Below, one piece after another: positions 10,919 through 31,360 of a stretch of DNA of 64,000 bases. The notes under the pieces are model-generated. The model was not told the DNA's origin, searched no databases, and saw only the letters and a list, made by a program, of their open reading frames with translations. The DNA comes from Sulfurisphaera ohwakuensis (GTDB lineage Archaea; Thermoproteota; Thermoprotei_A; Sulfolobales; Sulfolobaceae): positions 1 through 64,000 of the forward strand of contig NZ_CP045484.1 in the NCBI RefSeq assembly GCF_009729055.1, in the 5' to 3' direction. Within the stretch, counting starts at the first letter, position 1. The number at the start of each line of letters is the position of its first letter. A program made the position numbers and the translations under genes.

Positions 10919-11869
10919 TCACTCGCTAGCATCAAATGGTTTATTATAATACAGCACAGCCCAAGTAATAACAGCTAATTTCCTTGCACAGGCAATAATC
11001 AACTTCTTACCCTTCAACTTTCCCTTATGCTCTTCATAAAAACGCTTGATAACAGGATTAACCCTAATAGCAGTTAAAGCTGCAAGATAGAAAGCTCTCC
11101 TCAAAACAGCATCACCCCTCTTAGAAATACCCTTAGAAACAACACTCTTACCACTAGACTCAATAACTGGGTCAAGACCGCAATAAGCAACAAACTTCTT
11201 CTTATCACTAAAGCGCCTAATATCACCAACCCTAGCCAAAATAATACAACCCAAGGTTTTACCAATACCAGGAATGGTGAAAATCAAACTATCCTTGGGA
11301 ACAAGATCCTCAAGTTTCTCCTCAATCTCCCTCTTCCTAACCTCAAGTCTCTCCAACTCCTCCAAAAGAAACCTAACCTCAACCAAGACAATACTATCCC
11401 CACCCCTCAAAACCTCCTCTAAGTTCTTCTTGGACAAACTATCCTTATAACCCAAAAGTATCAAATCCCTCCTCAACCTATTCTTAACCCTAGCAATACT
11501 CCTAGTAACAAAATCCCATTGGCTAGTTAACTCCCTAGCATCACTTGTTGTAAACTCACTACCCATACTTACAACTATTTCTGCAAGCTTTTTAGCATCA
11601 TTCTTATCACTCTTCTTACCCCTAAAATCCTTGAACTTCTTGAGTATGAAGGGATTAATAATCCTAACGTCATACTCTCCCATCAAGTACTTTGCTAGGT
11701 TAATGTGGTAAATTCCAGTACTTTCAATACCCACTTTACAACCCTTAGGCAAGATCTTAATTATCTCCTCATAACCTTGCCTATCATTAGGAAACTCGTA
11801 GTATTTGCCTTGGAAATATACTACTAATTTATCTTTTGATACGTCTATTCCTGCGACTGGGGCCTCCAT
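10919..11869 (-). CDS. IS110-family transposase (DEDD recombinase)
   Basis: 316 residues. N-terminal RuvC-like DEDD domain: GIDVSKDKLVVY (first Asp), GIESTGIYH (Glu), and KSDKNDAKKLAE (Asp pair). C-terminal Tnp20 domain: IPGIGKTLGCIILARVGDI, YCGLDPVIESSGKSV (catalytic Ser region) and KRGDAVLRRAFYLAA. The gene appears intact. IS110 enzymes recombine a circular element with a target under guidance of a bridge RNA encoded in the non-coding end. Confidence 0.92.
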   Translation of the reverse strand: MEAPVAGIDVSKDKLVVYFQGKYYEFPNDRQGYEEIIKILPKGCKVGIESTGIYHINLAKYLMGEYDVRIINPFILKKFKDFRGKKSDKNDAKKLAEIVVSMGSEFTTSDARELTSQWDFVTRSIARVKNRLRRDLILLGYKDSLSKKNLEEVLRGGDSIVLVEVRFLLEELERLEVRKREIEEKLEDLVPKDSLIFTIPGIGKTLGCIILARVGDIRRFSDKKKFVAYCGLDPVIESSGKSVVSKGISKRGDAVLRRAFYLAALTAIRVNPVIKRFYEEHKGKLKGKKLIIACARKLAVITWAVLYYNKPFDASE

Positions 11870-21386: not shown

Positions 21387-21731
21387 CTCCTACGGGGAAT
21401 CCCCGCAATTCAACCGAACGATTAAAGTCAAGTATTACGAGAGTAAAATAAATAATCGAGTCAAGTAAGGAGAAAACAATATAAGCCCAGGTACACTATG
21501 TGGATAACACCCCCTTTAAGAGGCTGGCTGTGAAGCCCCTAGAACGATCTAACAAGCGGGGATAAAACCCCGTGTAGGAGAGTGTAACAAATTACCCTAG
21601 GGGCTGAACATATTTGATACTATGCAAGAAAATCAAGGTATTACAATCACAAGATTTATATAAAGGATACATGTCTAACACACACAGATTCTCGGTTCCC
21701 ACAGGAATGTTAGAGGCGTAGCATGTGGAGC
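21387..21731 (+). mobile_element. Non-autonomous IS110-family derivative (no transposase)
   Basis: About 345 bp related end to end to the element at 29449-30923: left end CTCCTACGGGG against CTCCCACGGGG, a conserved internal RNA-like module, and right end GTTAGAGGCGTAGCATGTGG against GTTAGAGGCGGTAGCATGTGG. The transposase gene is missing; about 70 bases of unrelated sequence join the two ends. CT flanks both sides (21387-21388 and 21732-21733). Confidence 0.75.
21484..21609 (+). ncRNA. Candidate bridge RNA module of the mini-element
   Basis: The outer stem AGCCCAG/CTGGCT encloses a guide-type internal loop (5' side GTACACTAT, 3' side CTTTAAGAG). A second stem AGCCCCTAG/CTAGGGGCT encloses GGGGATAAAACCCC and GTAGGAG (21574-21580). 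GTAGGAG is the exact reverse complement of the element start CTCCTAC (21387-21393), as expected for a donor guide. Transcription not tested. Confidence 0.6.
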
Positions 21732-28469: not shown

Positions 28470-29434
28470 TCACTTAGGCTCATAAGGCTTATTATTATAC
28501 CAAACACTCCATACAATCCTAGCCAACTTCCTTGCCAAAGCAGTATATAACTTCTTACCTCGTAACCTATCCTTATGAGACTCATAAAACTTCAACAACG
28601 TTGGGTTCCTAGAATAATTCATCTTTGCAAGAAAGTAGAATAAACTACGCAAATACTTATTACCCCTCTTAGAAATCCCCCTACTTATCACACCCCTACC
28701 ACTCCTCTCCACAATTGGGTCTAAACCACAATAAGCAACAAAAGATTCTGGCTTAGGAAAGCGCCTAATATCACCAACAACACCAATAATTATACCGGCT
28801 GCAAGCCTCCCAATTCCCGGGATAGTCAACAAAACGTGATCCTCGGGAACTTGCTCCTCAATCATCCTCCTAACTTCTTTCAATTTCTCTTGCGTTTCCA
28901 AGAGTGTTTTTGCCAATACTCTTATTTCTTCGAGTACTATTGGTGTGTATTCTAGGTTGTAGAGCTCTTCTTGTGTAAAATCCCCATTTGCGAGTTTTTC
29001 TAACCTTTCCTTGTTTATCTTGTCGTTGTCACTTACTAGGAATAGTGTCCTCTTTAGCCTGTTCTCGTATTTTACTTCTATATCCTTGAGGAAGAGGTAG
29101 AGTGTTACTAACTCCTTCAAGGGGTTGTATTCATATTCTTTGGCCTTGTCAGCCATGTTTTCTAATTTTTCAGCGTCATAAAAATCTGTTTTCTTTCCTC
29201 TAAACTCCTTCTCCCTCGATAGTATGTTGGGGCTTACTTGTAGTACTTTTATTCCTCTCTCTTTGAAGTATTGGCAAGGCCTTATTGCGTATACTCCAGT
29301 GGGCTCTAAAACTATTGCGCAAGGTTTCATCTTGAGGATTTCTTCATAACCCTTCTTATTATTCTCGTATTTTCTTTCCCTCCCCCTACTTGTAATTAGA
29401 TAATCTTTTGATATATCTATTCCTATTACCCCTA
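28470..29434 (-). pseudogene. IS110-family transposase (5' end damaged)
   Basis: DEDD domain: VGVIGIDISKDYLI, LEPTGVYAI, KKTDFYDAEKLEN. Tnp20 domain: IPGIGRLAAGIIIGVVGDI, YCGLDPIVERSGRGV and KRGNKYLRSLFYFLA. The coding frame extends upstream of the first ATG (29330) through the essential GIDISK motif, but no ATG, GTG or TTG is available in that frame; a GTG at ~29434 would work only with a one-base shift in the AAAAGGG run. Insertion of the other element at 29449 also separated it from its upstream region. Probably inactive. Confidence 0.8.
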
Positions 29435-29540
29435 CCCTTTTATCACACCTCCCACGGGGGATTCTCGTAAATCAAGTGAACGAATAAAACCAAGTATTAC
29501 GAGAGTAAAATAAATAAACAAGTAAGGAGAAAAACAACAT

Positions 29541-29667
29541 AAGCCCAGTCACACCAAGGGGATAAAACCCCCTCATATAGGCTGGCTGTGAAGCCCCTAG
29601 AACGATCTAACAAGAAGGGATAAAACCCCGTGTGGGAGGATGTAACAAATCACCCTAGGGGCTGAAC
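29541..29667 (+). ncRNA. Candidate bridge RNA with matching target and donor guides
   Basis: Stem AGCCCAG/CTGGCT (29542-29548, 29582-29587) encloses TCACACC (29549-29555), the hairpin GGGGATAAAACCCC, and ATATAGG (29575-29581). TCACACC equals the left target plus core C, and ATATAGG is the reverse complement of CCTATAT across the core and right target. The second stem AGCCCCTAG/CTAGGGGCT encloses GTGGGAGG (29632-29639), the reverse complement of CCTCCCAC at the element start. This is the guide logic of IS110 bridge RNAs. RNA ends are not known. Confidence 0.7.
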
Positions 29668-29739
29668 AGTTAACATTATGTAAAGAAAAACGGTATTATG
29701 AACACAAAAAATATCTTGTAAAACGAGAAATATTCAAAC

Positions 29740-30895
29740 ATGACAAATGATTTTATAAGCAAAGCCTTTGCAATAGACATATCACAAAGCAAACTAACAG
29801 CAGCAAAGGGAGAACTAGTCCTAAAACATGAAAAACCATCAGTAACAATCAAAGAAATAAAAGAATTCCCATACAACGACAAGGGAATAGAAGAGTTAAT
29901 AAAATTCCTCGGAGAATACAAAAGCGGGATAGTAGAGGCGACAGGAGTATACTTCTACTACCTACACGAGAGACTAACAGAAAAAGGATACAAGGTAACA
30001 GTAGTAAACCCGGCACAATTAACAGAAATACTAGGGAAAAAGACAGATAAACTAGACACACAAAGACTACTAGTAGCATACATGACCGGGGTAATAAAAG
30101 GATCACACATACCAACAGGAGAAATAAAAGAACTAAGAGAGTTAACAAGACACAGGGAAAACCTAGTAAACAAAATAACACAAGTAAAAAACGAGATAAG
30201 AAAAACCTTGGAAATCGCCGGTTATAAAATACAACCATTCGACAAGAGAGGAAGACAACTACTGGAAAAACTAGCAAAAGGAGATAAGCAAGGAAGAGAA
30301 GGAAGAGTTAAAGGAGAAACTAGGAAGAAACTTGAATGACGCAGAAAGGCTAACACTAAAACAACTAGTCGAGTTATTGAAAAGCTTGGAGAACATGGTT
30401 AAGGAAGTGGAGAACATGATAATGTCCAAGATACCAAAACCGGTAATAGAGTTATCCAAGATACCCGGAATTGGTTTAATCACAGCAGCAATAATTTATG
30501 CTGAATTCGGTGATATATCACGTTTTCCAAACTCAAAGGCAGCTAGGGCTTACGCAGGCTTAGCACCTAGAACCAAGCAGAGTGGTAATAGTGAGTTCCA
30601 CTCTGGTATGATTAGGGGTAACAAGCACTTACGCAAGTGTTTCTACTTAGCTGCTAGGAGTGCCAGAGGGCTTGAACCATTTAACGAGTTTTACGGGAGA
30701 CTCATTGCTAGGGGCAAGAGTGTAATACAAGCTACATGTGCACTTGCGGGGAAGCTTGCTTGCATAGCATATCACGTTTTAAAGGACGGTGTTTACAAGG
30801 GCATAGTCAAGAAGCGTCTTAGGATACCCAAGGGTGGGGAAGTTGATGTCAAGGATTTCAACGTGGGAGACGCACTTGACTCGTTATCCCCTTAG
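29740..30895 (+). pseudogene. IS110-family transposase in two frames (frameshift near 30280)
   Basis: Frame one (29740-30339): FAIDISQSKLTAAKG, VEATGVYFYYLHERL and KKTDKLDTQRLLVAYMTG form the DEDD domain. Frame two continues from ~30278 (KEISKEEKEELKEKLGRN) through SKIPGIGLITAAIIYAEFGD, YAGLAPRTKQSGNSEFHSG (Ser region) and RGNKHLRKCFYLAA. Continuity is restored by skipping one base in GCAAAAGGAG (30274-30283). Either a recent inactivating insertion or a programmed +1 shift at the A-run; a TTG at 30332 can start only the second part. Confidence 0.8.
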
Positions 30896-30925
30896 GTTTG
30901 TTAGAGGCGGTAGCATGTGGTGCCT

Positions 30926-31069
30926 ATATTCGTGGATTTTTCCACAATGTTCAGTCCGACGGTAGGGGTTTGTCACGCCCCAACCCGAAGACTTTGCTTC
31001 AGTTGATGTTTCGACCATGTTTCCCCAGCCGAGGAGAGTATTACTCTCCCCGACTAATAAAACCTATAT
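30926..31069 (-). ncRNA. Displaced non-coding end (candidate bridge RNA region) of IS110 element 2
   Basis: GC-rich 144 bases. It contains the stem GGAGAGT/ACTCTCC (31033-31039, 31043-31049) with a GTAATAC loop on the minus strand, followed by CTGGGG, the same arrangement as in the end of the 10909-12028 element. Separated from its transposase by the inserted element. Confidence 0.45.
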
Positions 31070-31071
31070 AG

Positions 31072-31360
31072 GGTTGATGTTAGGACTGCTGTTGTTTTGG
31101 CTGAGGGGGAGGTGGGGTGTTGAGAATGCTTTTCGTTCGCTGGAGGAGTTTAGGGTTAGGACTTGTGATGTTGGGAAGGAGTTGGTTCTTATCCTCCTTT
31201 GCTATTTTCTTTTGAATGTTTTGGTTCGTTCTTGGAGGAGGTGAGGTTGTGGGAGTTTTCTCAAGCTATTGTTGATTTTCTAGTCCTCAAGGAGATGAGG
31301 GGAGTTGTTGCACAAGGTTTACCTCAAGTTGGGGAGTTGTTTTTCGTGAACTTCAGCTAA
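31072..31360 (+). pseudogene. DDE transposase (IS4-superfamily type), C-terminal part
   Basis: Reads GLLLFWLRGRWGVENAFRS (the catalytic Glu box: RxRWGVEN), LEEFRVRTCDVGKELVLI and LLNVLVRSWRR to a TGA at 31244, then in another frame EFSQAIVDFLVLKEMRG to the natural-looking end VGELFFVNFS at 31360. It complements the N-terminal part at 27679-28440. At least one frameshift besides the interruption, so the gene is dead. Confidence 0.65.

Follow-up and report, generated by a model that had tools for sequence, protein, structure and literature searches.

An archaeal IS110-group insertion sequence whose left end very probably encodes a bridge RNA with guides matching the insertion site

Bridge or seek RNAs of IS110 elements were published in 2024 (PMC11208160, PMC11187229), and family-wide prediction in that year indicated that most IS110 elements encode such an RNA (PMC11208160, PMC11187229). 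A locus of Sulfurisphaera ohwakuensis raises the question of whether the RNA-guided transposition known from bacteria also works in archaea of this kind. The window analysed here, a stretch of 64,000 nucleotides, contains at 29449-30923 an element that the original prediction described as an archaeal IS110 carrying guides to its own insertion site and nested in another IS110. The description proved correct to the base, and both the archaeal host and the nesting were right. Considering the evidence given below, we conclude with high confidence that a Sulfolobaceae archaeon here carries an IS110-group insertion sequence, with a bridge RNA encoded in the element's left end and guides matching its site.

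The element and its insertion site are delimited as follows.

29449..30923, plus strand: IS110-group element of 1475 bp, from the left CT core to the right end ..GTGGTGC, delimited by full-length congener copies and empty sites
29441..29448, plus strand: left target (LT) TATCACAC, from the empty copies L150/L153
29449..29450, plus strand: left copy of the core dinucleotide CT, from empty-site comparison
30896..30923, plus strand: right end, conserved TTTGTTAGAGGC...GCATGTGGTGC, kept across copies
30924..30932, plus strand: right copy of the core CT and right target ATATTCG, from empty-site comparison

The full-length copies of the congener are 93% identical to the window element and share its ends. 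In addition, two copies of the interrupted gene in the same genome, L150 (2348225) and L153 (1042094), are uninterrupted and carry the junction. Across the empty site L150 reads TTATCACACCTATATTCG and L153 reads TTTGTCACACCTATATTCG, the latter junction fitting the 8-nt left guide GTCACACC fully. Because these two empty copies span the site, the insertion can be said to be clean and the core to be CT, with one CT on each side and no further duplication. The right boundary lies at ..GTGGTGC (30923), followed by the second CT, and rejoining the flanks gives TTATCACAC-CT-ATATTCG. The predicted junction ATCACAC-CT-ATATTCG is thus borne out by two empty sites in the organism's own genome, and the segments TCACACC (29549-29555), ATATAGG (29575-29581), GTGGGAGG (29632-29639) and CCTCCCAC (29448-29455) are all present at the positions first assigned to them. 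About 290 non-coding nucleotides precede the transposase ORF and about 28 follow it; such a long upstream non-coding region, together with the lack of target duplication beyond the core, is a trait of the IS110 group. No long terminal inverted repeat of the window element was found.

The transposase gene is in two parts.

29740..30339, plus strand: 5′ half of the transposase gene, DEDD/RuvC, PF01548 (domain match)
30332..30895, plus strand: 3′ half, PF02371 with the PRTKQSG motif, out of frame through a 5-nt deletion relative to the intact L120

As in the IS110 group, a DEDD RuvC-like N-terminal domain is combined with a PF02371 C-terminal domain bearing the catalytic serine motif, and D..E..D..D and GxxPxxxxSG (PRTKQSG) are conserved in the transposases. 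The congener copy L120 encodes an intact 386-aa IS110 RNA-guided transposase, scoring 240 bits against the corresponding model NF033542 (cut-off 140). Among PDB entries, IS621 and ISCro4 are nearest by profile, and the match to IS621 chain 8wt6 has an E value of 1.5e-26. The deletion that breaks the frame of the window copy lies near 30288 relative to the congener copies and, since the transposase is frameshifted, any movement of this copy would depend on help in trans. Other damage was observed among relatives. In L073 and L074 of genome G030, a small deletion takes the first catalytic aspartate (AIDIS becoming LRNS) in frames that are otherwise long, and L007, in the organism's own genome, has a 7-nt gap at the same place. 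Another IS110 gene is found at 11033-11290 on the minus strand of the window, with a 318-aa frame and seven near-identical matches in the genome.

The state of this gene bears on a qualification to which we give an even chance, namely that bridge-RNA logic applies but that the window copy is now defunct, its copy number reflecting amplification with the host element and not recent guided insertion. The frameshift fits such a history, as does the fact that the other copies of the genome are remnants or diverged; moreover, the host flanks are common to the four G030 copies, which may have multiplied together with the host. Past guided insertion is not contradicted by this: the empty host copies of this genome testify to a clean insertion, and intact genes occur in other genomes.

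The preferred reading, that of a left-end bridge RNA with guides to the site, rests first on the organization of the left end.

29530..29672, plus strand: predicted bridge RNA, of approximate extent (fold z -3.7; conserved in 33 aligned copies)
29542..29587, plus strand: stem-loop 1, the putative target-binding loop (helix 1 paired in 97% of cells)
29548..29555, plus strand: candidate left target guide GTCACACC, tracking LT across copies (0/20,000 permutations)
29573..29581, plus strand: candidate right target guide TCATATAGG, reverse complement CCTATATGA, tracking the right target RT (0/20,000 permutations)
29592..29663, plus strand: stem-loop 2, the putative donor-binding loop, with stem AGCCCCTAG (29592-29600) / CTAGGGGCT (29655-29663)
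29632..29639, plus strand: candidate right donor guide GTGGGAGG, reverse complement of CCTCCCAC at the left end, varying with the element end

The non-coding left end (29449-29739) adopts the two stem-loops that had been proposed, at -46.3 kcal/mol with an MFE z-score of -3.7, none of 200 shuffles being equally stable. The stem of the first is formed by AGCC(C)A (29542-29547) and TGGCT (29583-29587), below an upper hairpin GGGG-ATAAAA-CCCC that starts at 29558; the upper hairpin of the second is GGGATAAAACCCC (29617-29629), and a CUGA box-D-like motif follows stem 2. Across 33 sequences, 93.4% of cells are paired in a hand-drawn four-helix structure, and sliding this structure by 1-3 columns drops pairing to 29-63%. 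The covariance analysis suggested in the original prediction was favourable as regards conservation, with 93% pairing, and less so as regards compensatory change, which is weak (two pairs only) because the stems are nearly invariant. The stems are real, by virtue of conservation and energy and not of covariation. In nearly all copies the stems, both GGGG-ATAAAA-CCCC hairpins and their surroundings are almost constant, and it is the two strands of loop 1 that vary. RNAalifold placed the second stem of the 33 left ends in a shifted register, where covariation was almost absent, and the hand-drawn structure was counted instead. Single-sequence folds of L120, L129 and L082 (L120 and L082 as shortened slices) did not recover the structure, and in Rfam no family matched the module above any gathering score.

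Within loop 1, the segments GTCACACC and CATATAGG spell the insertion site ATCACAC-CT-ATATTC. In the window copy the agreement between guide and site is 7/8 on the left and 5/7 on the right. A combined score of 12/15 or better is reached at 1 of 127,985 window positions, a chance of about 1e-5 per register. The decisive support for reading these segments as guides is the comparison across copies. About 70 Sulfolobaceae loci were used, leaving 45 non-redundant guide/flank combinations on the left and 35 on the right, and flanks were re-paired with guides in 20,000 permutations per side; the right guide was scored over 6 positions, core excluded. The left guide agrees with its own left flank at a mean of 5.20/8 (re-paired 3.72 +/- 0.17; 0/20,000) and the right guide with its own right flank at 3.66/6 (re-paired 1.98 +/- 0.21; 0/20,000). 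Counting each distinct guide as a single event leaves the result at 0/20,000. Thus, loop 1 behaves as had been anticipated for target guides, the left segment having the same sense as LT plus the core C and the right one being the reverse complement, and the segments follow the insertion sites from copy to copy. Pairs of guide and flank include GTTATAAC and GTTATAA-C (left guide of L077), CAAGGTCT and CAAGGT-CT (L106), ATAATAGG and CTATTAT (right guide of L079), ATATTAGG and CTAATAT (right guide of L113), CTTCAAGG and CTTGAAG (L126), TATACAAGG and CTTGTATA (L129), and GGGGTAGG and CTACCCC (L100-L102). Around one third of the copies, mostly decayed or rearranged, fit poorly on one side.

It may be argued that these matches are not guides at all: a site preference set by the protein would be inherited, and the left end would have acquired flank sequence, or drifted towards it, after insertion. 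We regard this as highly improbable. It would account for the imperfection of the matches, such as the 7/8 and 5/7 of the window copy, and some copies share one repeated target, so that events are not fully independent. However, genome G028 contains one element, with copies at least 99.9% identical over the compared 3′ 1150 bp, at four distinct sites (AAAAAA-CT-TGTAG, AAAACA-CT-TGTAA, AGAAAA-CT-TGTCC and GATAAC-CT-TGTAG). Because a single guide set fits all four, the guide precedes the insertion. Furthermore, in G016 and G002 there are sister copies, nearly identical elsewhere, in which small changes of the right guide go with changes of the right flank. Sister copies with such paired changes include L113 (ATATTAGG/CTAATATG), L116 (ATAATAGG/CTATTAAG) and L120 (ATAAGG/CTTATAAA). 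Finally, simple sequence capture would not yield a same-sense left segment and a reverse-complement right one, as in IS621.

The guide reading extends to the donor side. The complementarity of loop 2 (29632-29639) to the element's own left end (29448-29455), already pointed out from the window alone, is confirmed, as expected of a right donor guide. Loop 2 and the left end co-vary in three states, CCCAC/GTGGG, CCTAC/GTAGG and TTCCAC/GTGGAA: most copies have GTAGGAG in loop 2 and CTCCTAC at the left end, the window and both G002 copies have GTGGGAGG and CTCCCAC, and L122 has GTGGAAGG and CTTCCAC. Loop 2 therefore follows the left end, the rule being broken in the decayed L098 and L108. The transfer of the bacterial IS110 guide logic to an archaeal element is in this way supported by the tracking of both loops. 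By eye, among the right-end variants, no left donor guide adjoining the core was found in same-sense or canonical form. A constant complementarity of 7-8 nt links TCTAACAA of loop 2 to TTGTTAGA, which lies about 20-30 nt inward of the right end; TCTAACAA was rejected as left donor guide for lack of covariation. Separately, all three copies of Sulfolobales archaeon HS-7 (L125-L127) are devoid of the right-donor-guide stretch of loop 2, and L126 is still close to its right target (CTTCAAGG versus CTTGAAG). The left core is immediately followed by 1 to 3 CCT units, and their number differs even between near-identical elements at a shared target (L085/L088, L066/L077, L064, L121), which suggests slippage of the pairing between donor guide and left end.

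The host of the insertion is itself an IS110 element, of a second lineage widespread in Sulfolobaceae.

28470..29448, minus strand: interrupted second IS110, most of the transposase gene (domain matches, uninterrupted copies)
30924..31072, minus strand: left end of the interrupted IS110 with its own bridge-RNA-like region, cut inside the donor loop (GAATATAGG / TGTG)

The left end of this lineage has the same anatomy as that of the window element. Its first loop reads ACATGGTCGA-(8-nt left guide)-CTGAAG..CTTCGG-(right guide)-GGCGTGAC and the next part CCCCTACC..GTGG-AAAAA-TCCAC-GAATATAGGTGTGATAAAGA-GGTAGGGG. In 24 events, its left guide agrees with its own left flank at 5.79/8, versus 3.77 when re-paired (0/20,000). 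This value holds for the observed 0-3-nt offset, set after inspection of the data with permuted pairs treated alike; the first register window gave 10/20,000. The bridge-RNA-like left end of the interrupted element overlaps an ORF running into its transposase. GAATATAGG contains ATATAGG, which is reverse-complementary to CCTATAT at the left end of the second element and, by position, would be its right donor guide. The target of the window element, CACAC-CT-ATATTC, is the exact reverse complement of GAATATAGGTGTG and lies inside this putative right-donor-guide stretch. Four G030 copies occupy the corresponding place, with a variant right flank CTATATGCG, and L109 (G024) has CTATATCCG on the right side with the right guide GATATAGG. 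L143/L233, L232 and L008, remnants in the organism's own genome, are also at this site; L143/L233 (231947) and L232 (1602590) are of about 60 bp, consist of the two extreme ends only and lie in further copies of the interrupted IS110. The window element may thus be read as aiming at the guide region of a rival IS110, which its insertion would presumably harm.

Eight elements of 335-345 bp retain both ends and the RNA module with the transposase absent. One of them is in the window.

21387..21731, plus strand: 345-bp transposase-less relative L003, with the same RNA module and both ends

The others, of about 340 bp, are L067, L075, L076, L104, L106, L108 and L110. Together with the 258-bp L078, the guides of transposase-less elements fit their own left sites above re-pairing (54/20,000), and both sides together give 29/20,000; tracking by the right guide alone was not significant in this set (2669/20,000). 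Such elements may travel in trans with their own guide. The least credible explanation, that the stem-loops serve to regulate the transposase, as an attenuator or by antisense action, with end complementarity being incidental, would suit a module directly upstream of the transposase gene, structured leaders being common, but variation is confined to the two internal-loop strands while stems and hairpins are constant, the flank tracking is 7-8 s.d. above permutation, and the module is kept where the transposase is absent.

DNA searches of 31 Sulfolobaceae genomes located the left end in 11, Sulfolobales archaeon HS-7 among them, and a single genome gave as many as 23 matches. In 147 genomes of the order, a search by covariance model gave no match outside the family Sulfolobaceae. 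Profile searches of genome contigs gave no match with the broken C-terminal half and Sulfolobales archaeon HS-7 only with the intact-protein alignment; one distant match was obtained in viral contigs.

The window element resembles IS621 (Durrant et al. 2024, PMC11208160; Hiraizumi et al. 2024, PMC11208158) in its left-end RNA with two internal loops, its CT core, a left guide in target sense and a right guide as reverse complement, a donor guide fitting its own end, and a DEDD-serine transposase. It differs in being archaeal and in having two near-identical upper hairpins of the GGGG-ATAAAA-CCCC type; no left donor guide was recognised and no separate 5′ stem-loop demonstrated. ISEc21 and its seekRNA (Siddiquee et al. 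2024, PMC11187229) are alike in belonging to the IS110 group and in having an upstream non-coding RNA that matches both target strands. ISEc21 also targets another IS, in an IS3-family transposase gene (PMC11187229), whereas the window element is found in another IS110, at the guide-RNA region of that other element. ISC1229 and its relatives of Saccharolobus (PMC10883916) are likewise Sulfolobales IS110 elements, many of them decayed; the parts of that source available to us report Cbp1 binding and not a guide RNA or target logic. As for TIGR-Tas and box C/D guide RNPs (PMC12045711), the C-terminal RNA-binding region of the transposase matches the Tas model weakly, below cut-off, but the window feature has no array or repeat units and belongs to a transposon with two ends and insertion sites. 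In the open-licence literature, we found no detailed treatment of archaeal copies, nor of transposase-less IS110 elements with their own guide; in the published Sulfolobus small-RNA literature, nothing specific was found on the RNA of this module.

By analogy with IS621 and ISEc21, the bridge RNA would be transcribed from the excised circle or from the left end and would bind the DEDD-serine transposase. It would pair simultaneously with the target and the joined circle ends, and the element would be inserted by an exchange of strands next to CT. In the case of the window element, the guide would address a repeated, conserved site within another IS110. A more specific scenario, which we put forward tentatively and judge slightly less probable than its opposite, is that in Sulfolobaceae the bridge RNA of one IS110 lineage is programmed against the donor-guide stretch in the bridge-RNA region of a rival IS110, a conserved stretch hard for the rival to change. 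Insertion there would disrupt the rival's RNA and also the beginning of its transposase, and the elements of about 340 bp, made of ends plus RNA, would carry the target choice and borrow the enzyme in trans.

The bridge-RNA logic itself is already published for the IS110 family, and the window element is a further, well-supported example. Less expected are the target in the bridge-RNA region of another IS110, the RNA-bearing transposase-less elements of about 340 bp, and the guide-target tracking in a second IS110 lineage. These archaea, too, very probably use RNA-guided transposition of the kind discovered in bacteria, a quantitative comparative test extending the guide-target logic to thermoacidophilic members of this domain. 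Among the copies of a single genome, reprogramming has left its natural trace. The RNA-only elements, and the choice of a rival's guide region as target, make competition between such elements a matter for experiment. A transposase from hosts that grow near 80 °C could provide a thermostable recombinase programmed by RNA.
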